Shown here: positions 1,518 to 19,002 of the stretch, one piece after another
Numbering within the stretch: position 1 is the first letter of the stretch
Layout of the letters: each line of letters begins with the position of its first letter
Source: Luteibacter sp.
GTDB lineage: Bacteria > Pseudomonadota > Gammaproteobacteria > Xanthomonadales > Rhodanobacteraceae
Direction of reading: 5' to 3'
DNA: 61,540 nucleotides
Assembly: GCF_009912395.1 (NCBI RefSeq)
Contig: NZ_WNDO01000032.1
Span: 1 to 61,540, forward strand
Program-made: the position numbers and the translations under genes
Notes under the pieces: model-generated
Told to the model about the DNA's origin: nothing
Databases searched by the model: none
What the model saw: the letters and a program-made list of their open reading frames with translations, nothing else

Positions 1518-2159
1518 ATGTTCCGCCTGATCGCCGCCGCGACCACGATCGCGCTTTCCGCCTCTCTCGCCCATGCCGGGGAGGTCCGCGTCCAGGTCGT
1601 GGACGTGGACGGCCACCCGGTGGCCGATGCCGTCGTGAGCCTCAGTCCGGTCGACAAGGCGCCGCGGGCTGTCCATGCCGTCACCCGAAACGTGGATCAG
1701 AAGGCACAGACCTTCATTCCCTACGTCACGGCGCTGCACCCCGGCGACAGCGTCGTGTTCCGCAATAGCGACGATATCGACCACCAGGTCTACTCGGTGT
1801 CCGACATCGCCCGTTTCGAATTCGTGCTGGACACGGGTGAATCGTCCAAACCACTCAAAGTGGACAAGACGGGCGTTGCCGCGGTCGGCTGCAATATCCA
1901 CGACCGCATGCTGACCTACCTATACGTGACCAAGGATCCCGACGTGGTGGTGACCGACGCGAAGGGCGAAGCCCGCATGGAAGGCGTACCCGCCGGCCAC
2001 TACACGGCGCACGCCTGGCATCCGCAGTTGCGCCCGGCGATCACCCTGCCGATCCAGGATGTGATGGTCGGGGCCGATGGCGGTTCCGTGCGCTTCATCG
2101 TCGCGCCCTTGCTGCCCGACCCCCGCACCGCGATGGACCACATGTCCATGGGGTCCTGA
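1518..2159 (+). CDS. Periplasmic cupredoxin-like protein (amicyanin-type copper site)
   Basis: The 213-residue protein starts with a Sec signal peptide ending at about ALA-20 (SLAHA). It then has a beta-rich cupredoxin domain of the sort annotated as methylamine utilization protein. The type I copper ligands are present: His89 in DDIDHQ, then Cys125, His128 and Met131 in GCNIHDRM. The C-x2-H-x2-M spacing is that of amicyanin rather than plastocyanin. It probably binds copper in the periplasm and carries electrons or senses redox state. No methylamine dehydrogenase genes are nearby. It ends seven bases before a membrane GGDEF-EAL gene, so the two are very likely co-transcribed and may form one sensing unit. 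Confidence 0.8.
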   Translation: MFRLIAAATTIALSASLAHAGEVRVQVVDVDGHPVADAVVSLSPVDKAPRAVHAVTRNVDQKAQTFIPYVTALHPGDSVVFRNSDDIDHQVYSVSDIARFEFVLDTGESSKPLKVDKTGVAAVGCNIHDRMLTYLYVTKDPDVVVTDAKGEARMEGVPAGHYTAHAWHPQLRPAITLPIQDVMVGADGGSVRFIVAPLLPDPRTAMDHMSMGS

Positions 2160-2166
2160 GCCCTCC

Positions 2167-4503
2167 ATGCGGCTACCGGGTTTCCGCACGCGCCTGGCGA
2201 TGTTCTTCGTCGCCACGCTGATCGTCGTCCAGGGCCTGACCGCCGGTCTGGCCTACGAGGTCGCGCGCCGGCACCTGCTGGCCGAGGGCGGCAGGCAGCT
2301 CACCGCCAATGCGGACGCCTTCGTGGCGCAGATGAACGACCTGTCCGAGCGCGTGGCCTCCGGCGTGCAGATCATGTCGCTGGACTATGCGCTGCGCTCG
2401 GCGATCGGCACGCGGGACCGCGGCACGATCCTCTCGGTACTTCGTAACCACGGCCATCGCGTCGGCGCCGCCCGGATGCAGCTGATCGGGCTGGACGGCC
2501 TGGTGCAGATGGACTCCACCACCACCGCCGGCGACGGCAAGCCGTTCGCCTTCCCCGAATTGGTCGCCAGCGCCTACGACGGTCATGCGGCGTCGGTCGC
2601 GACAGTCGGTGGCAAGGCCTACTGGGTCGTGGTGGTGCCGATCTACGCCCCCCAGCCGGTCGGCCTGGTGGCGGCAAGCATTCCGCTCGACGACGCCCTC
2701 GTGGCGCATATGCAGCAACTGTCGGCGCTGCCGCGCGACGTCGAATTGGTCGCCCGTGACGACGACGGCGCGTACAAGGCGATTGCGCATGGCGATTCGC
2801 GCCCGGAACTCACCGCGAGTTTCGTCGAGCGCGGCGAAGACCTGCCGCGCCATCCCACCGTGACGCGGATGGGCGGCCGTGAGTACCTCGCGCTGGCGCA
2901 GGCCCTGCGGCAACCCACGGCCAGCGGCTCGGTGCTGGCGGTGATGGGATACTCGCTCGACGACGCGATGCGGCCCTACAAGGCGATCTGGAGTGCGTGG
3001 TTGGGCCTGCTGGCGTTGGGACTGGTCAGCGGCCTGATCGCGTCCTGGCTCGTGGCGCGTGGTGTATCACGTCCGCTCGAAGCCCTGGCCGAAGCGGCCC
3101 GGCGCATCGCTGGCGGCGATTACCAGGGCACACCTTCCATTCGGCGGCGCGACGAAATTGGCGACCTGGCGCAGGCGTTTCGGACCATGGGCGATGCCGT
3201 CCACGAGCGCGAGCGCCGCATCCGCCATCAGGCGATGCACGACCCCGTCACCGGTCTGCCCAACCGCGCGGCGGCCGAAACGGCAATCGACGCGGACCTT
3301 GCGCAGGCTCCCCTGCGTGGCGGCGCGTTGCTGGTCGTCGGCGTGAACCGCCTGCCGGATATCGTGAAGACACTGGGCCACGCTATCGCGGATCGCCTCA
3401 TGGCCGATGCCGGCCAGCGCGTGCGTTCGGTGGCGGGCGAGGCGATGGTGGCGCGCGTCACCGATACCCAGTTCGCGGTCTGGTTGTGCGGTGGCGACAG
3501 CACGGGTGCCGTGGGCGTCGCGCGCCGCGTCGTGAAGGTGCTGGGCGAGCCGTACCAGGAAGCCCAGGTTTCGATGGATATCGGCCCGGCGGTCGGGATC
3601 GCGCTCGCTCCGGATCATGGCGAGCATGCCTCAGCCCTGTTGCGCCGCGCGGAGGTCGCCGAATTCGCCGCGATCGGCTCGAACGCCGGCGTGGACATCT
3701 ACGATCCGTGCACCGATCCGCATCGTCCCGAGCGCCTTTCGCTGATGAGCGACCTGCGCGACGCCATCGACGATGACGCGCTGGAACTGTGGTTCCAGCC
3801 GAAGCGGAACCTGCTCGATGGCCGCATCGACGCCGCCGAGGCCCTCGTCCGCTGGCATCGTCCCGGTCACGGCATGGTGCCGCCCGACCAGTTCATCGGC
3901 GTCGCCGAGGAAACCGGCAACGTCCGCCGGGTGACCCGCTGGGTGCTGGCGCGCGGCATCGCCCAGGCCGCGCAACTGCACCGCGAAGGGCGCGAGATGA
4001 AGGTATGGCTGAACCTCTCCGCCCACGACATCGGTGACACCGGCCTGCCCGAGCGCGTGGCCGAGTTGCTGGCACGTCACGAACTGCCGCCTTCGGCGAT
4101 CGCCCTGGAAGTGACCGAAAGCGCGGTGATCGGCGAACCCGAGGTGGCGCTCGACGTGCTGCGTCGCTTCGCGGACATGGGCATCGACGTGGTGATCGAC
4201 GATTTCGGCATCGGCCAGACCTCGTTCGCCTACCTTCGCCGCCTGCCGGTGACCGAACTCAAGATCGACCGCATGTTCGTCCGCCAGCTCGGCCAGGACG
4301 TCACCGACCGCACCATCGTCCGCGCCCTGGTCGAACTGGGCCACCGCTTGGGCTTCCGGGTAACGGCCGAAGGCGTGGAGGACGAGGGCAGCCTCGACTA
4401 CCTCGCTGACGTCGGCTGCGACCACGCCCAGGGCTATTTCATCGGCCGCCCCATGCCGTTCCGCGACCTTTGCAGCTTCTACGATGCGCAGACCGTGGCG
4501 TAA
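2167..4503 (+). CDS. Membrane c-di-GMP phosphodiesterase (sensor-HAMP-degenerate GGDEF-EAL)
   Basis: A 778-residue inner-membrane protein. TM1 is at about 13-30, a periplasmic sensor region runs to about 270, TM2 is at about 275-297, and HAMP follows. A GGDEF domain at about 350-520 has lost its active-site motif (VTDTQFAV where GGDEF should be), and an EAL domain fills the C-terminus. The EAL domain keeps EALVRW near 558, the asparagine of NLS, the glutamate of EVTES, DDFG near 678, KIDR and the late AEGVED glutamate, so it should hydrolyse c-di-GMP while the GGDEF is regulatory at most. The frame is open upstream to 2077, but ATG 2167, just before MRLPGFRTRL and TM1, avoids overlap with the cupredoxin gene. 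The periplasmic part could read the cupredoxin; that is inference. Confidence 0.88.
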   Translation: MRLPGFRTRLAMFFVATLIVVQGLTAGLAYEVARRHLLAEGGRQLTANADAFVAQMNDLSERVASGVQIMSLDYALRSAIGTRDRGTILSVLRNHGHRVGAARMQLIGLDGLVQMDSTTTAGDGKPFAFPELVASAYDGHAASVATVGGKAYWVVVVPIYAPQPVGLVAASIPLDDALVAHMQQLSALPRDVELVARDDDGAYKAIAHGDSRPELTASFVERGEDLPRHPTVTRMGGREYLALAQALRQPTASGSVLAVMGYSLDDAMRPYKAIWSAWLGLLALGLVSGLIASWLVARGVSRPLEALAEAARRIAGGDYQGTPSIRRRDEIGDLAQAFRTMGDAVHERERRIRHQAMHDPVTGLPNRAAAETAIDADLAQAPLRGGALLVVGVNRLPDIVKTLGHAIADRLMADAGQRVRSVAGEAMVARVTDTQFAVWLCGGDSTGAVGVARRVVKVLGEPYQEAQVSMDIGPAVGIALAPDHGEHASALLRRAEVAEFAAIGSNAGVDIYDPCTDPHRPERLSLMSDLRDAIDDDALELWFQPKRNLLDGRIDAAEALVRWHRPGHGMVPPDQFIGVAEETGNVRRVTRWVLARGIAQAAQLHREGREMKVWLNLSAHDIGDTGLPERVAELLARHELPPSAIALEVTESAVIGEPEVALDVLRRFADMGIDVVIDDFGIGQTSFAYLRRLPVTELKIDRMFVRQLGQDVTDRTIVRALVELGHRLGFRVTAEGVEDEGSLDYLADVGCDHAQGYFIGRPMPFRDLCSFYDAQTVA

Positions 4504-4555
4504 ACCCGATCGCGGCGTACGATGTACGGCATCGTCGAACGGGTCGGGGGATCGG

Positions 4556-5710
4556 GTGGATCAGGACGTCTGGGAACGGAAATACCATCTCGCACTGGAA
4601 CGGATGGAGCGTGACGAACACGATTTCCGCCAGGTCGAGGAAAACCTGCGCCGGCTCGCGCTGCGTCTCGCGCTGCTCGCCCGTGGTCAGAGTACCGATG
4701 CCGACGCCTTGCTCGACCGTCTCACGTCCAGCCTTCACGCCGCATCCTCGGGCGAATCGCTCGATCCCCTGCTGGACGATCTCAGCGCCGTGGTCGCGGC
4801 CCTGGACGTGCCGCGTGGCGCCGACGATCCCGATAGCGTCGCGGCTCTGCGCGAGGACATCGCGCGTCTCCAGGACCTTCTGGCCGAAGTCGGGACGCGC
4901 CTGGGCGACGTGACCCGCTTCCTCGCCGGTGGCATGCGCGAGGCGGAGGAGGGCGAAGACCAGACACGCTCGCTCGACGCCCGCGTGCACGTGGAGATGA
5001 AGCTGCTGGAAGAACAGGTGGCGGCGGCCACCGACTTGTCGGGCCTGCGTGCGCAGGTCAGCGAGCGGCTGTCGATGATCGACGTGCATTTCCGCGAGCA
5101 CCGCGAGCGTGAGGACGCACGACTGGCGGCCTATCGCGACGGCGCGCGACGCATGCGTCATCGCGTCGAAGAGCTGGAAACGCAGGCCACCACCCTGCAG
5201 GACTCGTTGCGTCGCGAGCACGAACGTGCCCTGACCGATCCGCTCACGGAGTTGCCGAACCGGCTGGCCTGGGAACGTCGCATGGAGGATGTCGAAAGCG
5301 ACGTGCGCGCTGGTGGCATGGCCTGCCTTGCCGCCTTCGATATCGATCACTTCAAGGCGATCAACGATACCTATGGCCACGCGGCGGGCGACGCCGTGCT
5401 GCGTATCGTGGGGCGGACTCTGGCCCAGATTCTCGGCGACGACACCTTCGTAGCCCGTTACGGTGGCGAGGAATTCGTCGTGGTGTTCGTGGGCCGTGAT
5501 ACCGATGCTGCGCTGGCGTCCTCCGTGGCCCTGTGCGCGGCGGTGGCGAAGCTGGCTTTCCACGCTGGCGGCAAGCCGGTGACCGTGACGATGTCGGGCG
5601 GTATCACGCGATTCGACGCACGCGATACCGCCATCACCGCTTTCGAACGGTCCGATCGCGCCCTTTACGCGGCCAAGCGCGCGGGACGCGATCGCTGCCT
5701 GGTGGGCTGA
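4556..5710 (+). CDS. Cytoplasmic diguanylate cyclase with long helical N-terminus
   Basis: About 384 residues from GTG 4556, which follows a purine-rich GGGGG ribosome site; upstream in-frame starts would place it inside the preceding stop region. The first ~220 residues are charged and heptad-like, predicted coiled coil, with no membrane segment. The C-terminal GGDEF domain has FDIDHFK metal ligands and an intact GGEEF at 303-307, so it should make c-di-GMP. The product-inhibition RxxD motif is absent at the expected place upstream of GGEEF, suggesting weak feedback control. It lies 52 bases after the phosphodiesterase gene in the same direction, giving a synthesis/degradation pair. Confidence 0.88.
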   Translation: MDQDVWERKYHLALERMERDEHDFRQVEENLRRLALRLALLARGQSTDADALLDRLTSSLHAASSGESLDPLLDDLSAVVAALDVPRGADDPDSVAALREDIARLQDLLAEVGTRLGDVTRFLAGGMREAEEGEDQTRSLDARVHVEMKLLEEQVAAATDLSGLRAQVSERLSMIDVHFREHREREDARLAAYRDGARRMRHRVEELETQATTLQDSLRREHERALTDPLTELPNRLAWERRMEDVESDVRAGGMACLAAFDIDHFKAINDTYGHAAGDAVLRIVGRTLAQILGDDTFVARYGGEEFVVVFVGRDTDAALASSVALCAAVAKLAFHAGGKPVTVTMSGGITRFDARDTAITAFERSDRALYAAKRAGRDRCLVG

Positions 5711-5716
5711 TCGGGG

Positions 5717-5971
5717 TCAGTCGCGACGGGCGAGCAGCAACCCAACGAGGATGCCGACGCCGAAACCACCCAGGATGGCGCCGAGCGGACGCTCGGCGAC
5801 GGCCTCGCGGACGGTTTCCACCGCTTCGCCGGCCTTGGCCTGCACGCGGCCGGCGGTTTCGCGCACCGCGCCTTCGGCCTCGAGGTCGTGATCGCCCGTG
5901 AGGGCGCCGGCGGCACGCTGCACACGGCCACCGATGGTATTGGCGGCACCGCGGATCTGGTCTTCGTTCAT
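5717..5971 (-). CDS. CsbD-like stress protein with C-terminal membrane/glycine zipper segment
   Basis: An 84-residue protein starting at MNEDQIRGAANTIGG, preceded by a strong GGAGAGG ribosome site. The N-terminal 55 residues are a CsbD-type amphipathic repeat (GxxxxxAGxxTGD...). The end, LGAILGGFGVGILVGLLLARRD, is one glycine-rich membrane helix like those of the DUF883/ElaB group that anchor to membrane or ribosomes. Such proteins accumulate in stationary phase or general stress; the exact role is unknown. A longer frame reaches 6028 but lacks a ribosome site. The gene converges on the diguanylate cyclase with only six bases between stops. Confidence 0.8.
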   Translation of the reverse strand: MNEDQIRGAANTIGGRVQRAAGALTGDHDLEAEGAVRETAGRVQAKAGEAVETVREAVAERPLGAILGGFGVGILVGLLLARRD

Positions 5972-6113
5972 GGTCCTCTCCTCGCTGGGTTGACGATCGG
6001 CAGACGTTGCCGGGAAGGGGGTGCACATTCCGTCAAGCCGACGCGTTCACCGTGTCCATGCGGCGACGCGTCATAATGGGCTCTTCGTTCGCCACAGGGG
6101 TGCTACCCGACCC

Positions 6114-8714: not shown

Positions 8715-9614
8715 TTGCGTCGCGTCCTGTTCGCCATCCTGTGCCTGGTCGCCGTTTCCGTCCAGGCGCAGACACCCGTGCGCGTGGGTTCGAAGGCCGA
8801 TAACGAGGGCGCGGTGCTGGGCCAGATCGTCGTGCAGGTGCTCAAGCACGAAGGTATCCCGGTGATGGACCGTACGCAGCTCGGGCCGACATCGATCGTC
8901 CGGCGCGCGCTGCTCAACGGCGATCTCGATATCTATCCGGAGTACACGGGCAACGCGGGGTTCTTCTTCCATCGCGAGACCGATCCCGCGTTTCGCGATG
9001 CGGCGCGAGCCCATGCGCTGGCCGCCTCGCTGGACCTGGCCGCGAACCGGTTGGTGTGGTTGCGTGCGGCCCCGGCGGACAACCATTGGGCGATCGGCGT
9101 GCGCGGCGATGTCGCGCGTGCAGCGGGCCTGAAGACGCTGGATGATTTTTCCCGCTGGGTGCGTTCGGGCAGCGATGTCTATCTCGCCGGCTCGGCGGAG
9201 TTCGTGGAAAGCGATGCCGCGTTGCCCGCCTTCCAGTCTGCCTACGGATTCCGCCTGCGCGGCGACCAGTTGCTGGTGCTGGCCGGTGGCGATACCTCGG
9301 CCACGATCAAGGCGGCGGCGGAGGGCACCTCAGGCGTGAACGCGAGCATGGTCTATTCGACCGACGGTGCGCTGGCGGTGACGGGCCTGGTGGTGCTGGA
9401 CGATCCGCGTCATGTGGAAATGGTCTATCAGCCCGCGCCCGTGGTTCGCGAAGAGGTGTTGCGGCGCTATCCGCGGATGCGCGAGGCGCTGGACAAGGCG
9501 TTTGGTTCGCTGACCGTGGACGTGTTGCGCCGACTCAATGCGCGAACCCAGATCGATGGCGAGGACGCGGCGAAGGTCGCGGCGGACTACCTTCGCGACG
9601 AGGTGTCGTTATGA
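8715..9614 (+). CDS. osmF: OsmF/YehZ-type periplasmic osmolyte-binding protein
   Basis: A 299-residue solute-binding protein of an ABC importer for betaine-like compounds. It begins with a TTG codon three bases after the GH31 stop and has a Sec signal peptide (LFAILCLVAVSVQAQ). The mature protein starts VRVGSKADNEGAVLGQ and contains LNGDLDIYPEYTGN, a signature of the OpuAC/OsmF family. In E. coli and Salmonella the homologous YehZ/OsmU systems are osmotically and stationary-phase regulated, and the E. coli one has low affinity for glycine betaine. The stop overlaps the next start (ATGA). The substrate cannot be read from sequence. Confidence 0.87.
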   Translation: MRRVLFAILCLVAVSVQAQTPVRVGSKADNEGAVLGQIVVQVLKHEGIPVMDRTQLGPTSIVRRALLNGDLDIYPEYTGNAGFFFHRETDPAFRDAARAHALAASLDLAANRLVWLRAAPADNHWAIGVRGDVARAAGLKTLDDFSRWVRSGSDVYLAGSAEFVESDAALPAFQSAYGFRLRGDQLLVLAGGDTSATIKAAAEGTSGVNASMVYSTDGALAVTGLVVLDDPRHVEMVYQPAPVVREEVLRRYPRMREALDKAFGSLTVDVLRRLNARTQIDGEDAAKVAADYLRDEVSL

Positions 9615-10741
9615 CGACGGATGTACGCAAGGCGCCCTTCCTGCCGGTCGCGGTGCTTTGTTGTCTCGGTTTCGCAGCGGTGTGGCTGCCTTTCCTGCAT
9701 GTCGCGCCCAATCGCCTGCTGAGCGGCGTGGCGCGCAGTCCCCACGAGATCGTGCTGGCTGTCGCGTGGCTGGCAGTGGCGGGGCTCGCGTGGTTCATTC
9801 GTTCGCGGACGCTGGCGATCGCCTGTGTATCCGCCATGGTGGTCGCGTTGCCCTGGCTGGCGGGCCATGACGCCGGGCGCCTGCTCGACGGCGCGGCGCC
9901 CACGTCGCGCGTGCAGACCGGTGCGGGATTCTGGACGATGTGGCTGGCCGCTGGCCTGTTGCTGCTGGATCGCCTTCGCGGCTTGTCGCTGCGCTGGCGC
10001 GCCGCGACCTGGGCCGCGATAGCACTCGCCGTGCTATCCCTTGCCATGGGCGGTGCGTTCGGCGATATCGCCATCGTGCGTGAGTACCGCGCGCAACGAG
10101 GCGTTTTCATCGATGCGTTCTGGACGCACGTCGCGCTTTCCGGAACGACCTTGCTACTGGCCCTGGCGATCGGTTTGCCACTGGGCGCTTGGGCGTGGCG
10201 AGCGAAGCGTGCGGGTGGCGTGTTGCTGGGCGTGTTTTCTTTCCTCCAGACCGTTCCGTCGCTGGCGTTGTTCGCTTTGCTGATCGGCCCGTTCGCATGG
10301 CTCGCGCGCGCATGGCCGGCGCTGGGCGCGCTCGGCTTTGGCGGAACCGGCGCCGCGCCGGCCGTGTTCGCGCTGGTGCTCTATGCCTTGCTGCCGGTGC
10401 TGCGCTACACGGTGACGGGGCTCGATGCCGCGCCCGCCGACGCGCGCGACGCGGCGCGCGGTCTGGGCATGAGTCGTTGGCACGTGCTGGCGCGTATCCA
10501 GGTGCCCTTGGGCCTGCCGGTGTTGCTGTCCGGGCTGCGCATCGTGGCGGTACAGACCGTGGGCCTCGCCGCCGTCGCGTCGCTGATCGGTGCGGGCGGG
10601 TTAGGGCGTTTCGTTTTCCTAGGCATCGGGCAGGGGGCCACCGACATGGTGTTGCTTGGGACGCTGGCGATCATCGCGCTGGCTTTTGCGATGGACCTGC
10701 TGTTCCAGGGGCTGCATGCCCTGGCGGAGGTGCGGGCATGA
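9611..10741 (+). CDS. yehY: YehY-type ABC transporter permease
   Basis: A 376-residue polytopic membrane protein. The N-terminal half has about four or five hydrophobic helices (from PVAVLCCLGFAAVWLPF) that act as an extra membrane domain, and the C-terminal half is a BPD_transp_1 permease with the coupling-helix region DARDAARGLGMSRWHVL. The long form with the added N-terminal helices is typical of YehY and unlike the short partner permease encoded two genes later. It overlaps the binding-protein gene by four bases and the ATPase gene by four bases, so translation is probably coupled. Confidence 0.86.
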   Translation: MTTDVRKAPFLPVAVLCCLGFAAVWLPFLHVAPNRLLSGVARSPHEIVLAVAWLAVAGLAWFIRSRTLAIACVSAMVVALPWLAGHDAGRLLDGAAPTSRVQTGAGFWTMWLAAGLLLLDRLRGLSLRWRAATWAAIALAVLSLAMGGAFGDIAIVREYRAQRGVFIDAFWTHVALSGTTLLLALAIGLPLGAWAWRAKRAGGVLLGVFSFLQTVPSLALFALLIGPFAWLARAWPALGALGFGGTGAAPAVFALVLYALLPVLRYTVTGLDAAPADARDAARGLGMSRWHVLARIQVPLGLPVLLSGLRIVAVQTVGLAAVASLIGAGGLGRFVFLGIGQGATDMVLLGTLAIIALAFAMDLLFQGLHALAEVRA

Positions 10742-11667
10742 TCGTCTTCGAAGGCGTCGGCAAGCGTTTCGGCGGACGCTCGGTGATCGATGGACTCGAC
10801 CTGCGTATCGAGGATGGCGAGTTCTTCGTGTTGGTCGGACCCTCCGGTTCGGGCAAGTCGACCTTGCTGCGCATGGTCAATCGATTGGTGACGCCGGACA
10901 GCGGTCGCATCCTGGTGGACGGTGACGATGTGGCCTCGGTGGATGTCGAGCAATTGCGTCGCGGTATCGGCTACGCCATCCAGTCGGTGGGATTGTTTCC
11001 GCACCGGACCGTGGGAGAGAACATCGCCACGGTGCCACGCCTGCTCGGCTGGTCGAAGCGCGACATCGACGCGCGGGTCGACGAACTGCTCGCCCTGCTG
11101 CGGCTCGACGACCCCGGCATCGCCGATCGCTATCCGCGCACGCTCTCCGGTGGCCAGCAGCAACGCGTCGGCGTCGCGCGCGCGCTCGCTGCGCGTCCGC
11201 GCATCGTGCTGATGGACGAACCCTTCGGCGCGCTCGATCCGCTCACCCGCGAATCGCTGCAATCTGCCCTGCGCACGATCCAGCGCGATACGGCGACGAC
11301 GATCCTGTTCGTTACCCACGACATGGACGAGGCCTTCGGGCTGGGCGATCGCGTCGGCCTCATGCTCGACGGCCATCTCGTGCAGGTGGGTACGCCGCTC
11401 GAATTGATCCGGCAGCCGGCGGACGAGCGCGTGCGTGAGTTCGTCGGCGGTTCGCGGGCGCGTCTTCGCGAACTGGCGATCCGGCCGGTGCGTGAGCGAA
11501 TGCGCAACGAGATCGCCAGCGGTGGCGCCGCGGTGGATATCGACGCGAGCCTCCAGGACGCCCTCGGCGCGATGCTCGCGCAAGGACGGGACCGACTGCG
11601 GGTAGAAGAGAAGGGTCGTGTCGTCGGCAGCATCGCGTTGGCCGACCTGGTCGAGCGTCGCGGGTGA
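10738..11667 (+). CDS. yehX: YehX-type ABC transporter ATP-binding protein
   Basis: A 309-residue ATPase. Walker A is GPSGSGKST at 34-42, with the Q-loop in IQSVGLF, the signature LSGGQQQR, Walker B IVLMDEP and the H-loop THD. After the nucleotide-binding domain comes a C-terminal extension with a single CBS-like half (VDIDASLQDALGAML...) as in the OpuA/ProV/YehX branch, where CBS modules can respond to ionic strength or nucleotides. The start ATG overlaps the yehY stop; a much longer in-frame opening upstream is not coding for this protein. It energises import through the two permeases beside it. Confidence 0.88.
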   Translation: MIVFEGVGKRFGGRSVIDGLDLRIEDGEFFVLVGPSGSGKSTLLRMVNRLVTPDSGRILVDGDDVASVDVEQLRRGIGYAIQSVGLFPHRTVGENIATVPRLLGWSKRDIDARVDELLALLRLDDPGIADRYPRTLSGGQQQRVGVARALAARPRIVLMDEPFGALDPLTRESLQSALRTIQRDTATTILFVTHDMDEAFGLGDRVGLMLDGHLVQVGTPLELIRQPADERVREFVGGSRARLRELAIRPVRERMRNEIASGGAAVDIDASLQDALGAMLAQGRDRLRVEEKGRVVGSIALADLVERRG

Positions 11668-12374
11668 GGGCGATCCTGCCCCTGTGCATCCTCGTGGCCT
11701 TGCTGCTGGTGCTTCCGCACGCGGGGCCATGGTTCCATGCGTGGATGCCGACGCTGTCGCATCCGTTGTATGCGCGTACGTCGTTCCATGCGCTCACCTT
11801 CGCCCATCTGGGACTCGTGTTCGCGGCGACCTTGGTGGCCACCGTGCTGGGCCTGTCGCTGGGCATCGTCGCGACGCGGCCGTTCGGGCGCTCTCTGTTG
11901 CCCACGGTGCGCGCCGTGGCCGTGATCGGACAGACCTTCCCGCCGGTGGCGGTACTGGCCATCGCGGTGCCATTGCTCGGCTTCGGTGCGGCGCCGACCT
12001 TCCTGGCGCTGGTGCTCTACGGCGTGCTGCCGGTGCTCGGGCAGACCGTCGCCGGACTCGACGCCGTGCCACCCGCTGCGCTGCATGCGGCGGACGGCAT
12101 GGGCTACGGCCGGTGGCGGCGGCTGTTGGAGGTGGAATTGCCCCTGGCGGCCGGGCCGATCATGGCCGGCATCCGTCTTTCGGCCATCGTCAGCATCGGC
12201 ACGGCGACCATCGGCTCGGCGGTTGGCGCGACGACGCTGGGTTCGCCCATCGTGGAAGGGCTGGTCGGCAACAATCCGGCGTATGTGATCCAGGGTTCGC
12301 TGCTGGTCGGTGCGTTGGCGTTGTCGGTGGATGGTTTGCTGGGCGCGTTCGAACGCTACGTACGCCGCCTGTAG
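11664..12374 (+). CDS. yehW: YehW-type ABC transporter permease
   Basis: A 236-residue membrane protein with about six helices and the EAA-like coupling segment LHAADGMGYGRWRRL. It starts at GTG 11664, overlapping the ATPase stop by four bases, and completes the osmF-yehY-yehX-yehW order known from the E. coli yeh operon. Its TAG stop codon (12372-12374) is contributed by the first bases of a REP palindrome, so insertion of that repeat may have set the present C-terminus (ending YVRRL). Confidence 0.86.
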   Translation: MRAILPLCILVALLLVLPHAGPWFHAWMPTLSHPLYARTSFHALTFAHLGLVFAATLVATVLGLSLGIVATRPFGRSLLPTVRAVAVIGQTFPPVAVLAIAVPLLGFGAAPTFLALVLYGVLPVLGQTVAGLDAVPPAALHAADGMGYGRWRRLLEVELPLAAGPIMAGIRLSAIVSIGTATIGSAVGATTLGSPIVEGLVGNNPAYVIQGSLLVGALALSVDGLLGAFERYVRRL

Positions 12375-14460: not shown

Positions 14461-14673
14461 GGAAGCTCCTTGGGGTGGAAAAGGTCGCCCACGATAGACC
14501 CGCTACCCACCCTCGTGTCCATGACCGATGGCACCCCCGTATCCGGCAAGTCGTGACGGGGGATGTGCCCTAATGATCGTCCGGCCCCGCAATGGGGACC
14601 GGCTGGGCGGGCCGCGGGTCGCCCCGGTCCGCCCGGACCTTCCAATGGCAAAGATCTTTAGGGAGATCGCCTT

Positions 14674-15450
14674 ATGAACGCTCGTTTCGAACTTACCGGT
14701 CCGCAGATGGACATCACCAGCTACCCGACCTGGGCCCAGGACATGGTGTCCTCCTGTGAAGACGCCCGCGCGGCCATCGTCCGCCACGACATGTGGTCGG
14801 CGATGGTCGAGGCCACGCTGGATCCGCAGACCACCCGCAACTTCATGGTGGGGGTGTGGCCCGTGATCGAACGCTTCCCCGGCTATATGTCCCATAGCCT
14901 GCTCAAGACCCGTTACGGCCGCAGCCCGGGCGACGATCTCGCCCGCCGCTGGCTGGTCCGCAACATTCGCGTGGAGCAGAACCATGCCGAGTACTGGCTC
15001 AACTGGGCCGAATCGGCGGGGGTGTCCCGCGAGGAGGTCCTGGGCGGCGAGCCGCCGAAGGGTTCCCAGGCCCTGGCCGACTGGTGCGAGGAAGTGTCCC
15101 GGCACGATTCGCTGGCCGCGGGCATGGCCGCTACCAACTATGCGGTGGAAGGAGCCACCGGTGATTGGTCGCAGATTGTCTACGAAAGCAAGGCCTATGC
15201 GGAAAGTCTGCCGATTTCCGGCCGAAAAGCCGGTCTGCGCTGGCTTCAGCTCCATGCCGCGTATGACGATACCCATCCGTGGGAGGCGTTGGAAATTGTC
15301 TGCACGCTGCTGGGGAGCAATCCGCCAGTGGACCAGATCGAGCACGTGAAGGAATGCGTTCGCCGCAGCTACGTCGCCATGACGGTGACGCTGGATCGTT
15401 GCATGGATGGCATCCTCTCCATCCGCAAGTTGAACGAGGCGGCCGCGTAA
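14674..15450 (+). CDS. undA: UndA-like non-heme iron fatty acid decarboxylase (1-alkene forming)
   Basis: A 258-residue all-helical protein of the heme-oxygenase-like diiron (HDO) superfamily, the group often annotated as TenA/PqqC-like. It closely resembles Pseudomonas UndA, which decarboxylates medium-chain fatty acids such as lauric acid to terminal alkenes such as 1-undecene with O2. The six likely iron ligands are Glu101 and His104 (VEQNHAEYW), Glu159 (NYAVEGATG), and His194, Asp198 and His201 (HAAYDDTHPWEALEI); these are the positions I recall for UndA. The N-terminal TGPxMDxxSYPTWAQ block also matches. The start ATG follows a clear AGGGAGA ribosome site. Thiaminase activity is unlikely because no TenA cysteine is apparent. 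The next gene, 59 bases on, is a c-di-GMP protein. Family assignment is firm; the reaction in this organism is inferred. Confidence 0.8.
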   Translation: MNARFELTGPQMDITSYPTWAQDMVSSCEDARAAIVRHDMWSAMVEATLDPQTTRNFMVGVWPVIERFPGYMSHSLLKTRYGRSPGDDLARRWLVRNIRVEQNHAEYWLNWAESAGVSREEVLGGEPPKGSQALADWCEEVSRHDSLAAGMAATNYAVEGATGDWSQIVYESKAYAESLPISGRKAGLRWLQLHAAYDDTHPWEALEIVCTLLGSNPPVDQIEHVKECVRRSYVAMTVTLDRCMDGILSIRKLNEAAA

Positions 15451-15509: not shown

Positions 15510-18257
15510 ATGCGACGCATTGAGGCCAGTCAACAACGACCACTGGCACGGCGCCTGAGGCCCTTGGCCTATGCGCTTGTGGCGGTCGTGTGCCTCATCC
15601 TCACCCTGACGTGGGTCGCGCTACAGACCCAGGTGACTCTCGCCGGTTTTCTCAACGGCGAGAGTCTTTGGTCGAAAGCCCAGAAGCAGGCGGTCATCGA
15701 CCTGGACGATTACGCCCAGCATGGGCGTGCTGACGACCTCAATGGTTTCAAGCGTAACTATGCGGTGCTGATGGCCGATCGCTCCGCGCGCGATGCCATC
15801 GCCAGCGGTCATTTTTCGCATGCGGAGGTGGAGGACGACTTCGCCCGTGGCGGGGTCATCCCCGAGGCCATCCCCGGCATGGTCTTCATCTTCGAACATT
15901 TCTCCGGCATGCCTTACGTGCGCGAGGCCATTACGGAGTGGCATTCGGTCGACGATAGTCTCGCCGAACTGGACGGTATCGCGGAGCGGCTGGAGCACGG
16001 ATACAACGCCGGTACGCTGACCGCGCAGGACATCGAGGAAGAGCGTGCGCACATCGGTGCGCTGAACCGTTTCATCGAGCCACGCGCCAAGGCGTTCTCG
16101 CTCGACATCGCCAACGGCGCCTCGTGGCTGGGCAGGGTGCTTTTCTTCACCGTGCTCGGCGTGGCCGCGCTCGCTTCGGCACTGTGGATGCGTCTGGCGA
16201 GTCGCATCCTCGCCGGTATCCGTGGCACCGAGGAACGCTACAGCCTGCTATTCGACAGCGCCGCCGACGCCATCTTCATGGTGGACGAGGAAACCGGCCG
16301 CATCCTCGACGCCAATCGACGCGCGGCGAGCTGGATCGGCTGCTCGCGACACGAACTCACCGGCATCCAGTTGTCGAGCCTGTTCGTCGACGGCACCGCG
16401 TATTCCGGCGTGGGTACCTTGCGTGGCGTCGAGGGCAAGACGCGACCGGTGGAAACGCAGAGCAGCCTCGTGGTGTGGGGATCGCGCCAGGTCTGCCAGG
16501 CCATCGTGCGCGACATCTCCGATCGCGTCGCGATGGAGCAGGAGCGCAAGATCGCCGCCGAAGCGCTGGCGAGCATCGCGGAAGGCGTGATCATCGCCGA
16601 CGCCGAGCGCCGCGTGACCACCGCCAACGCGGCGCATACGAAGCTCACCGGTATTCCCGTGCAAGCGTTGCGCAAGACGCAGTTCGACGCGACGCGCACG
16701 CTGCCCGATGGCCGTCCGCTGCCTGCATCGCTGTGGGAAAACATCGCCGCCGGCGACAACTGGCTCGGCGAAGTGGAAAGCCGCCGTGCTGATGGCAGCA
16801 CGTATCCCGAGCTGATGAGCATCAGCACGATCCGCGACGCGGAAGGCAAGCCGCAGCATTACGTCGCGGTGGTGTCCGACATCACCGCGCGCAAGGCCGA
16901 TCGCCAGCGCCTGCAGCACATGGCCACGCACGATCCGCTGACGGGTCTGGTCACGCGCTCCGAATTCGAGCGGCTCTGTGCCGAGGCGATCACGCGCGCC
17001 GCCCACGAGCGCGGCGCGGTCGCGGTGCTGTTCGTCGACCTCGACGCGTTCAAGGTCATCAACGACAGCTATAGCCATGCCACGGGCGACGCCCTGCTCA
17101 TGCGCGTGGCCGAGCGCATCCGCGCGCAGCTGTCGCCGCACGACGTGGCGGGTCGCATCGGTGGCGACGAATTCACCATCCTGCTGGCAGACCTGCGTTC
17201 GCGCGAGGAAGCCCTGGTCACCGCGGAAGCCTTGCTGGCCGCGTTGGCGCGCCCCTTCGACCTGGGCGACTACGAGCTGTTCGTCAGCGCCAGCATCGGC
17301 ATCGCGGGTTATCCCCTGGACGGCAACGACCCGGTCACCCTCATCGCGAACGCCGACGCGGCGATGTATGTGGCGAAGACGGAAGAACGCAACGCGTTGC
17401 GTTTCTACACGCCCAAGATGCACGCCGACGCGCGGCGCCGCCTGAAGCTTGCTTCGGAGTTGCGCCAGGCGCTTGTCCGTAACGAATTCCAGTTGCTCTA
17501 CCAGCCCAGCGTCGAGATCCGCAGCGGGCGGATCGTGGCGGTGGAAGCCCTGATCCGCTGGCGGCATCCCGAGTGCGGCAGTGTGCCGCCGGACGAGTTC
17601 ATCCCCATCGCCGAAAGCCTGGGCCTGATCCGCCAGATCGACGAATGGGTCATGGAAACGGCGTGCCGCCAGTTGGTGGTCTGGGACGAACTTCGCCTGC
17701 CGCCGTTGCGCGTGGCGGTGAATGTCTCCGCCGGCTCATTCGCCCATCCGGAATTCCTACCGGGCGTCGAGCATGCCCTGGCGAAGACGGGCGTGCCGGC
17801 CAACCGCTTGCTCATCGAACTGACCGAAAGCGCGATCCTTCGACTTGGCGAGGATACCGAGCGCACGATGCTGGCCCTGCACAAGCATGGTGTGGCCGTG
17901 GCGATCGACGACTTCGGCACGGGGTACTCCTCGCTGGCCTACCTGAAGCTGCCGGCCGTGGCCTATCTGAAGATCGACCGTTCCTTCATCACCGGCCTGC
18001 CGACCAATGGCAACGACGTGGCGATCACCGAGGCGATGCTCGCCATCGCCCGCAGCCTCGACCTGCACACCATCGCCGAAGGCATCGAGACTGAGCCCCA
18101 GCACGACTTCCTGCTGAAGGCGGGCTGCCAGGAAGGGCAGGGCTTCCTGTACTCGCGGCCGCTGCCGCCGGACGAGATCGAGCGCCTGCTGGCGCCGCGG
18201 GCTTCCACGGCGGCAAACAAGCGCCTGTCCCTGGTGCCACCCAAGCGGGCCTCCTGA
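15510..18257 (+). CDS. Membrane PAS-PAS-GGDEF-EAL c-di-GMP turnover protein
   Basis: A 915-residue inner-membrane protein. TM1 is at about 22-43, a helical periplasmic region of about 160 residues follows, and TM2 is at about 207-228. Two PAS domains run at about 242-350 and 352-465. A GGDEF domain with intact RIGGDEF near 551 and an EAL domain with VEALIRW near 677, DDFGTGYSS near 799, KIDR and AEGIE complete it. Both catalytic sets look complete, so it could make and break c-di-GMP, with direction set by the PAS or periplasmic input. ATG 15510 follows the purine-rich GAGGTAGAGGG. It sits 59 bases after the undA-like gene in the same direction and may share its transcript. Confidence 0.88.
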   Translation: MRRIEASQQRPLARRLRPLAYALVAVVCLILTLTWVALQTQVTLAGFLNGESLWSKAQKQAVIDLDDYAQHGRADDLNGFKRNYAVLMADRSARDAIASGHFSHAEVEDDFARGGVIPEAIPGMVFIFEHFSGMPYVREAITEWHSVDDSLAELDGIAERLEHGYNAGTLTAQDIEEERAHIGALNRFIEPRAKAFSLDIANGASWLGRVLFFTVLGVAALASALWMRLASRILAGIRGTEERYSLLFDSAADAIFMVDEETGRILDANRRAASWIGCSRHELTGIQLSSLFVDGTAYSGVGTLRGVEGKTRPVETQSSLVVWGSRQVCQAIVRDISDRVAMEQERKIAAEALASIAEGVIIADAERRVTTANAAHTKLTGIPVQALRKTQFDATRTLPDGRPLPASLWENIAAGDNWLGEVESRRADGSTYPELMSISTIRDAEGKPQHYVAVVSDITARKADRQRLQHMATHDPLTGLVTRSEFERLCAEAITRAAHERGAVAVLFVDLDAFKVINDSYSHATGDALLMRVAERIRAQLSPHDVAGRIGGDEFTILLADLRSREEALVTAEALLAALARPFDLGDYELFVSASIGIAGYPLDGNDPVTLIANADAAMYVAKTEERNALRFYTPKMHADARRRLKLASELRQALVRNEFQLLYQPSVEIRSGRIVAVEALIRWRHPECGSVPPDEFIPIAESLGLIRQIDEWVMETACRQLVVWDELRLPPLRVAVNVSAGSFAHPEFLPGVEHALAKTGVPANRLLIELTESAILRLGEDTERTMLALHKHGVAVAIDDFGTGYSSLAYLKLPAVAYLKIDRSFITGLPTNGNDVAITEAMLAIARSLDLHTIAEGIETEPQHDFLLKAGCQEGQGFLYSRPLPPDEIERLLAPRASTAANKRLSLVPPKRAS

Positions 18258-18327
18258 CCGCCGGCCTTCGGATCGTCACGGGCGTCCCCATATGATGGGG
18301 CATCCGCTTTCCGTAAGAGGCAACGCC

Positions 18328-19002
18328 GTGTCCGACCGCGACTCCATCGTTTTCCTGTTCGACGTCGACAACACCCTGATCGACAACGACCGTTTCAGCG
18401 CCGACCTCGCCGCCCGGCTCGAACACGAGTTCGGCACGGATGGCCGCGAGCGCTACAACGCCATCGACAAGGAGATTCGCGGCCAAGTGGGCTACGCCGA
18501 TTATCTGGGCGTCTTGCAGCGCCTGCGCGGGCAGCGCAGCGAGCGCTCCTTCATGGAGATGTCGTTCTTCCTGCTCGACTACCCCTTCGAGCAGCGTCGC
18601 TTCCCGGGCGTGCTGGAAGCCATCGACCACCTGCGCACGCTGGGTCGTCCGGTGATCATGTCTGACGGCGATACCGTGTTCCAGCCGCGCAAGATCCGTC
18701 GCGCGGGGCTATGGGAAGCCTTCCGCGAGGACGTGCTGATCTACGTGCACAAGGAAGAGATGCTCGACGACATGCAGGCCCGCTACCCGGCTGACCACTA
18801 CGTGATGGTCGATGACAAGCCGCGCATCCTCGTGGCACTGAAGAAGCTGCTGGGCGATCGCGTGACCACGGTGTTCGTAAAGCAGGGGCACTATGCGGCG
18901 GCGGCGGGCAAGGACCTGGAAGACACGCCGCCGGACATCACGGTGGACACCGTCGCCGACCTGGCGAAGCTGGGGCGCGAGGCATTTTTCGCTACCGCTT
19001 GA
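18328..19002 (+). CDS. HAD-superfamily hydrolase
   Basis: About 224 residues from GTG 18328, which has an AAGAGG ribosome site; an earlier in-frame ATG at 18292 lacks one. HAD motif I is FLFDVDNTLIDND with the nucleophile and acid aspartates, motif II is the IMSDGD segment near 110, and motif IV is YVMVDDKPR. The helical cap between motifs I and II suggests a small-molecule phosphatase or dehalogenase-like enzyme. The substrate is not identifiable. A REP lies 22 bases after the stop, between it and the convergent yraN gene. Confidence 0.75.
   Translation: MSDRDSIVFLFDVDNTLIDNDRFSADLAARLEHEFGTDGRERYNAIDKEIRGQVGYADYLGVLQRLRGQRSERSFMEMSFFLLDYPFEQRRFPGVLEAIDHLRTLGRPVIMSDGDTVFQPRKIRRAGLWEAFREDVLIYVHKEEMLDDMQARYPADHYVMVDDKPRILVALKKLLGDRVTTVFVKQGHYAAAAGKDLEDTPPDITVDTVADLAKLGREAFFATA

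Follow-up and report, generated by a model that had tools for sequence, protein, structure and literature searches.

The alkene-forming UndA of Pseudomonas has C10–C14 acids as substrates (PMC12344977), and its set of three histidine and three carboxylate ligands (3H/3C) is described as the motif of the heme-oxygenase-like diiron oxidases (HDOs) (PMC13108848; PMC11363339), with Trp190 of UndA and its role numbered in PMC13108848. In Pseudomonas, undA is associated with rbdA; PMC10614000 credits this observation to Rui et al. 2014 and also connects undA with the maturation of biofilms. For RbdA, the description is that of a phosphodiesterase tied to dispersion, with a putative sensor in the periplasm (PMC10294637). 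For Pseudomonas, a claim that the undA–rbdA link is new was rejected, as it is already published (PMC10614000 citing Rui et al.). UndA homologues of Acinetobacter have also been reported (PMC6410514 citing Rui et al. 2014), and the novelty that the original prediction saw in a UndA outside Pseudomonas does not hold. The Luteibacter homologue described here is very probably a genuine UndA, that is, a non-heme diiron oxidase of the heme-oxygenase fold that would convert acids to terminal alkenes and whose native substrates would be mainly iso-branched. Its identity as UndA is well supported by sequence, a predicted model and neighbourhood, and its activity is a prediction.

The window (the whole stretch of DNA analysed, 61,540 nucleotides) belongs to the 5.39-Mb genome of a soil bacterium, a Luteibacter, so the term xanthomonad used in the original prediction is right at the level of the order. 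The predicted open reading frame of 258 residues is present as claimed, begins with ATG and is intact (Table 1). The closest named locus in the relatives search, from which records of the window's own genome may have been excluded, is that of L. anthropi (94%). The undA homologue is the single PF14518 match in its own genome and scores 47.7 bits against a cut-off of 28.9, while TENA_THI-4 reaches 17.9, under its cut-off of 22, and NCBIfam gives only a CADD-type match below cut-off. It had been anticipated that automatic annotation would call the protein TenA-like and miss UndA. Among the matches listed (the best 120 rows in each of two homologue searches, many of them unnamed and with abbreviated names), the source names indeed read TenA, PQQ biosynthesis protein C or iron-containing redox enzyme, and none reads UndA; the second search mostly returned the same family again. 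A scan of the intergenic stretch that would hold the undA promoter gave no sigma-70-type match, and a terminator scan at the undA locus gave matches at chance level.

Table 1 Features of the undA locus in the window (positions of the whole stretch).
Feature	Position	Strand	Basis or remark
undA homologue, 258 aa, predicted heme-oxygenase-like diiron oxidase	14674..15450	+	ORF, homology, alignments, fold model
Intergenic stretch from the divergently oriented M13 peptidase gene to undA; expected site of the undA promoter	14461..14673	.	promoter scan
rbdA-like gene, 915 aa, PAS + GGDEF + EAL	15510..18257	+	domain search, motif scan
RbdA-type sensor region, ESxWSKxQK motif	15510..16241	+	homology to proteins beside undA
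HAD-type hydrolase gene	18292..19002	+	34 bases after rbdA-like gene

A phmmer search of the PDB returned 3oql, the P. syringae homologue (E 9.2e-83), 4wwj, P. fluorescens UndA (5.2e-76), and 6p5q (9e-76); up to E 0.1 nothing was found beyond UndA-family sequences and two CADD/4-aminobenzoate synthase sequences at E 0.004 (CADD 1rcw, 0.0036). Residues 4–245 of the Luteibacter protein align with both Pseudomonas proteins over 242 columns without a gap, at 44% identity to the Pf-5 enzyme and 48% to that of P. syringae, and Glu101, His104, Glu159, Trp190, His194, Asp198 and His201 coincide with the same residues in both. The numbers that we take to be those of the UndA iron ligands follow from the same alignment register as Trp190. 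The predicted six-ligand iron site in the UndA register is therefore recovered without a shift, and the three sequence blocks cited with it are found in the protein. All seven residues are invariant in the 36 rows of a broader alignment (A5), which comprises the window protein, 27 of the 80 loci examined (the best 80 of 160 relatives), six Pseudomonas-type rows and two distant ones. A profile search with A5 gave UndA chains at E ~1e-117, CADD at 3e-8 and the best TenA-like chain at 0.017; none of its 34 matches up to E 10 was a PqqC chain. The AlphaFold2 model (pLDDT 92.8) matched UndA-family chains at ranks 1–7 in the PDB (TM 0.88–0.94 by query), and among the best 50 matches listed CADD scored 0.69–0.73 and TenA, PqqC and BesC chains 0.56–0.72. 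The protein combines a modelled heme-oxygenase fold with the 3H/3C set in the UndA register and Trp190, and shows neither the TENA_THI-4 score above cut-off nor the lack of metal site that would mark a TenA or PqqC relative.

In a tree of 35 chosen rows, which contains no CADD or TenA outgroup, the Rhodanobacteraceae fall on one side of a branch with support of 98/100, Pseudomonas with 93/80 and Burkholderiaceae with 88/81, and the three together are split from a group of Acinetobacter, G268 and G600 at 100/100. Support for the branch order among the three is only 62/32; three rows are long-branched, with a warning from the program about long branches that adjoin. The distant UndA-like group (G268, A. 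baumannii and G600; L112 1474–2211, L119 5980–6732 and L210 4176–4952) is 31–36% identical to the window protein and keeps the six ligands and W190 in all three rows.

By analogy with Pseudomonas UndA, the Luteibacter protein would be loaded with iron and follow the same chemistry. The carboxylate of a medium-chain fatty acid would bind Fe1, activation of O2 would give a peroxo-diferric species, and CO2 would be released by oxidation at C3–H or at the carboxylate, to leave a terminal alkene one carbon shorter, with a reductant required for repeated turnovers. By the criterion applied here, 24 positions differ between the 28 Rhodanobacteraceae rows and the six Pseudomonas rows. Position 102, beside the ligands, is leucine in Pseudomonas and glutamine in the Luteibacter protein. 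In the C-terminal helix, position 239 is phenylalanine in all six Pseudomonas rows and threonine, leucine, serine, glycine or phenylalanine in 9, 14, 2, 2 and 1 of the 28 Rhodanobacteraceae rows (threonine in the window protein), and position 235 is tyrosine in 6/6 versus serine in 21/28. This helix may line the chain end or the substrate channel, and because it differs from that of Pseudomonas the substrate may differ as well.

The rbdA-like gene starts 59 bases past the undA stop on the same strand. Its product has an intact GGDEF motif and, by pattern scan, EALIR and the other scanned EAL motifs, which make it a candidate c-di-GMP phosphodiesterase. The helical N-terminal region, for which the sensor model is all-helical (pLDDT 87.2), probably consists of membrane helices and a periplasmic sensor. 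The motif of this sensor is common to the P. aeruginosa, Caballeronia M1242 and Burkholderia ambifaria proteins adjoining their undA genes, and E51, S52, W54, K56, Q58 and K59 are among the invariant residues of an 18-row sensor alignment. The N-terminal part aligns with the EAL protein beside undA of P. aeruginosa (L114) at 25.6% identity (E 2.6e-19) over 293 columns, some of them within the PAS region, and with the Caballeronia M1242 and B. ambifaria proteins at E 1e-13 and 5e-10. The L114 gene is presumably rbdA, from its place beside undA. The Luteibacter neighbour thus shows an RbdA-type sensor together with PAS-GGDEF-EAL and adjoins undA. The L114 record is classed as a plasmid of 847 kb (p2014S05-249-1); hppD and arfB lie close to undA there, and the content looks like that of a chromosome.

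Two other genes of the locus were rejected as parts of the unit. The HAD-type hydrolase gene is near the pair in seven of the nine Luteibacter loci L031–L039 and in none of L040–L120, L001–L030 being too short to show it, and it was matched only in Luteibacter. The M13 peptidase matches at 67–100% in Luteibacter loci and elsewhere only at 40–52% in L068, L105 and L107. About 9 kb upstream of undA, the window also carries a GGDEF/EAL protein of 808 aa (2077–4503, +) followed by a GGDEF protein of 408 aa (4484–5710, +), for which no UndA link was seen. Four genes at 8715–12374 (+) resemble, by their translations, an osmoprotectant (glycine betaine type) ABC uptake system with binding protein, two permeases and ATPase.

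An rbdA-like gene lies downstream of undA on the same strand in each of the 80 loci examined, at an inferred gap of 60–377 bases (median 90) that is overstated where the UndA tail is unaligned. The same pair was found in a further 30 loci from the genus and family surveys, whose organisms overlap with the 80-locus set. Beyond Luteibacter, most of the other genes that surround the pair in the window are not conserved. The Pseudomonas-type loci (L114; L153–L160), Caballeronia M1242 and B. ambifaria show the opposite order, with the rbdA-type gene first; in five of these loci (L153–L157) another GGDEF match lies at the other side of undA, on the opposite strand. By these queries, no RbdA-type neighbour was found within 6 kb of UndA in Caballeronia SBC1 (L115), nor beside the Methylibium UndA piece; on the C. 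zhejiangensis plasmid, tblastn found only a C-terminal piece of an EAL gene beside undA (L117, about 5572–5973), and L113 is cut by a contig end. In the distant group, G268 has a GGDEF-EAL gene upstream of its UndA-like gene, the reading frame downstream in G600 is read as PAS-GGDEF-EAL from its translation and tblastn, and the neighbour in A. baumannii is a divergent diguanylate cyclase.

The two genes were also compared genome by genome. In a phylum sample of 398 genomes, profile searches found the RbdA-type sensor (E ≤ 1e-6) in 45, UndA (E ≤ 1e-10) in 11, the window's own genome included, and both in 10, and in all ten the two lie within 3 kb of each other by coordinates. Among the relatives, 34/34 genomes with UndA have the sensor, and 4 of the 27 without UndA have one, at 24–35% identity. 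From these counts the sensor is more widespread than UndA, and UndA mostly adjoins the sensor. Genome G034 (L213, L214) carries two undA/rbdA-like pairs in different places, as though the whole unit had been duplicated. Around RbdA-type genes without UndA (ORFs around 19 places, together with the UndA place of G600), recurrent neighbours were found only within one genus code (three g397 and two g225 loci). The RbdA-type gene next to undA points to a single response served by both the formation of alkenes and the turnover of c-di-GMP, in which UndA would be coupled to c-di-GMP. The occurrence of the pair in opposite gene orders makes a link between 1-alkenes and c-di-GMP directly testable outside Pseudomonas.

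Genome searches found the undA homologue in all 23 genomes of the genus, in 11/14 from other genera of Rhodanobacteraceae and in 0/24 from other families of the same order. A survey of the family gave 166 of 233 genomes and 20 of 26 genera, which makes UndA a common trait of Rhodanobacteraceae. An even sample of the class contained a UndA match in 4/369 genomes, the window's own counted and one match being a 75-residue piece at a contig end. Another of the four, G318, of another family by its code, has a UndA of 61% identity with an adjoining rbdA-like gene. The 12 plasmid records with UndA are from Pseudomonas, Caballeronia, Burkholderia, Acinetobacter and Methylibium, and the Methylibium plasmid RPME01 (L120 5001–5309) holds a piece of the UndA gene only.

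The likely product can be approached from the lipids of the genus. Luteibacter fatty acids, including those of medium chain, are mostly iso-branched (PMC9965599). For five species, the table of that source gives in the C10–C14 range iso-C11:0 (3.6–4.7%), iso-C11:0 3-OH (1.6–4.2%), iso-C12:0 3-OH (to 1.0%), iso-C13:0 (not detected to 0.5%), iso-C13:0 3-OH (1.2–3.2%), iso-C14:0 (to 1.1%, in L. yeojuensis), straight C14:0 (0.1–0.5% in three of the five species) and one unknown peak, and it has no row for C10:0 or C12:0 (lauric acid). For L. yeojuensis, free iso-C13:0 is entered as 'not detected/not reported' and the 3-OH form at 2.4%. Since straight C14:0 is tabled, straight alkenes are possible too. 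A headspace study of a dozen or so strains describes 10-methyl-1-undecene as specific to 'Dyella yeojuensis' (PMC9330711), a compound named by NIST library match only in a data set in which peaks under 2% were ignored. In the text of that study, 'undecene' occurs only inside 10-methyl-1-undecene, no 1-undecene is mentioned for its three P. aeruginosa strains, and emission of the branched compound is not mentioned for Dyella japonica. 'Dyella yeojuensis' is Luteibacter yeojuensis in the NCBI taxonomy. The headspace strain is represented here by strain SU11 of the same species, whose locus (L034) has an intact UndA of 86% identity with the same ligands and T239, next to an intact rbdA-like gene; the D. 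japonica locus L100 has undA and an rbdA-like gene as well.

Iso-C13:0 has a main chain of twelve carbons, like laurate, and its loss of CO2 and two hydrogens yields 10-methyl-1-undecene, C12H24. The enzyme would convert iso-C13:0 to this alkene and iso-C11:0 to 8-methyl-1-nonene. Judging from the Luteibacter lipid composition and the one published volatile, the native substrates would be mainly iso-branched acids. Because the acids are iso-branched, lauric acid has no row and 10-methyl-1-undecene is reported from a Luteibacter species, a branched 1-alkene is the probable native product and 1-undecene, by the lipid table, an unlikely one. A connection of 10-methyl-1-undecene with UndA was not found in open-licence PMC text on undecene with Luteibacter, Dyella or Rhodanobacter. 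The volatile has no known enzyme in that text, and undA is its likely gene. The L. yeojuensis strain reported to emit it drew C. elegans in one study. We tentatively propose that Rhodanobacteraceae UndA is a branched-chain 1-alkene synthase, forming 10-methyl-1-undecene and 8-methyl-1-nonene in Luteibacter, and that with the RbdA-type sensor it constitutes an alkene/c-di-GMP module kept across Pseudomonas, Burkholderiaceae and Rhodanobacteraceae, in which the volatile or its fatty-acid precursor would be produced or sensed as a signal for biofilm dispersal. The protein may also provide an iso-branched alkene synthase for comparison with Pseudomonas UndA.

Other readings of the protein were weighed against a genuine UndA. 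The database names, among the matches listed, and the common fold superfamily would fit a metal-free relative of TenA or PqqC, a reading that is ruled out for practical purposes by the TENA_THI-4 score below cut-off, the profile search, with its zero PqqC chains and its best TenA-like chain at 0.017, and the complete 3H/3C site. On this point alignment, Pfam and profile search agree with the original assignment to the UndA family. A diiron oxidase of the UndA fold that now acts on another substrate or catalyses another reaction, such as the oxidation of a lipid or a signal molecule, and that emits no alkene is improbable. HDOs with the same ligand set do catalyse very different reactions (PMC13108848), the identity to the tested enzyme of 44% counts against the UndA reading, and the 24 differing positions include position 102 near the ligands, with divergence in the C-terminal helix. 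However, functionally different HDOs, those compared with AetD, share less than 11% (PMC10654658) where the identity here is 44–48%, Trp190 and the RbdA-type neighbour are retained, and a fitting alkene is reported from a Luteibacter species.

Two further alternatives concern the volatile and the gene pair and leave UndA membership aside. It is possible, though we think it unlikely, that the 10-methyl-1-undecene of L. yeojuensis was misnamed or comes from another enzyme such as an UndB-like desaturase, and that UndA makes little of it or another alkene. The identification by library match, the D. japonica genome locus with undA in a species not said to emit the compound, and three PF00487 (fatty-acid-desaturase-type) matches in G014, taken as L. 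yeojuensis SU11, are consistent with such a source. The compound nevertheless corresponds exactly to iso-C13:0 less CO2 and two hydrogens; of the desaturase ORFs in G014 and in the window's own genome (G000), one in each reads, by our assessment, as an acyl desaturase, and the other two in each genome match DesA/DesB-type models far under their cut-offs when the matched stretches (L224, L225, L227 and L228) are compared. A P450 search gave no match in G014, so no OleT-type enzyme was found there, and three matches in G000. Doubtful, too, is the reading that undA and the c-di-GMP gene are paired by chance or purely by inheritance, with no functional link. One inherited event could account for the pair within Rhodanobacteraceae, a UndA match is absent from 35 of the 45 genomes in which the RbdA-type sensor was found, and L115 has UndA without such a neighbour by these queries. 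This is countered by the two gene orders, undA first in Rhodanobacteraceae and rbdA-type first in Pseudomonas and Burkholderiaceae, by the other c-di-GMP-type genes that adjoin the distant UndA-like group in 3/3 cases, by the two pairs that G034 carries by coordinates, and by the outside genes, most of which are not conserved beyond Luteibacter. With ~24 GGDEF/EAL genes in the genome, we estimate that roughly 1% of genes would have such a neighbour by chance.

Among known systems, DtpC of Acinetobacter baumannii (PMC13232832) also has an HDO domain with six predicted ligands, but their spacing differs (E143, H153, H232) and the protein has a protective role in drying; it most likely lies outside UndA. 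CADD, the self-sacrificing 4-aminobenzoate synthase, belongs to the same HDO superfamily and has the same kind of metal site, at about 20% identity, a profile E of 3e-8 and TM 0.69–0.73. The neighbour shares the ESxWSKxQK motif, PAS, GGDEF and EAL with P. aeruginosa RbdA (L114), whereas it is 915 rather than 818 aa long, has one more PAS region and shows 31% identity in the GGDEF-EAL part. P. syringae PSPTO1738 (3oql, 'TenA homolog') is the closest solved chain, with 48% identity and the same ligands. P. fluorescens Pf-5 UndA (4wwj, 4wwz, 4wx0 and 6p5q) has the same fold, six iron ligands, W190 and, in its genus, an rbdA-type neighbour. In contrast to Pseudomonas, where rbdA precedes undA, Luteibacter has undA followed by the rbdA-like gene, different residues in the C-terminal helix, and lipids that are mostly iso-branched, with no lauric acid row.
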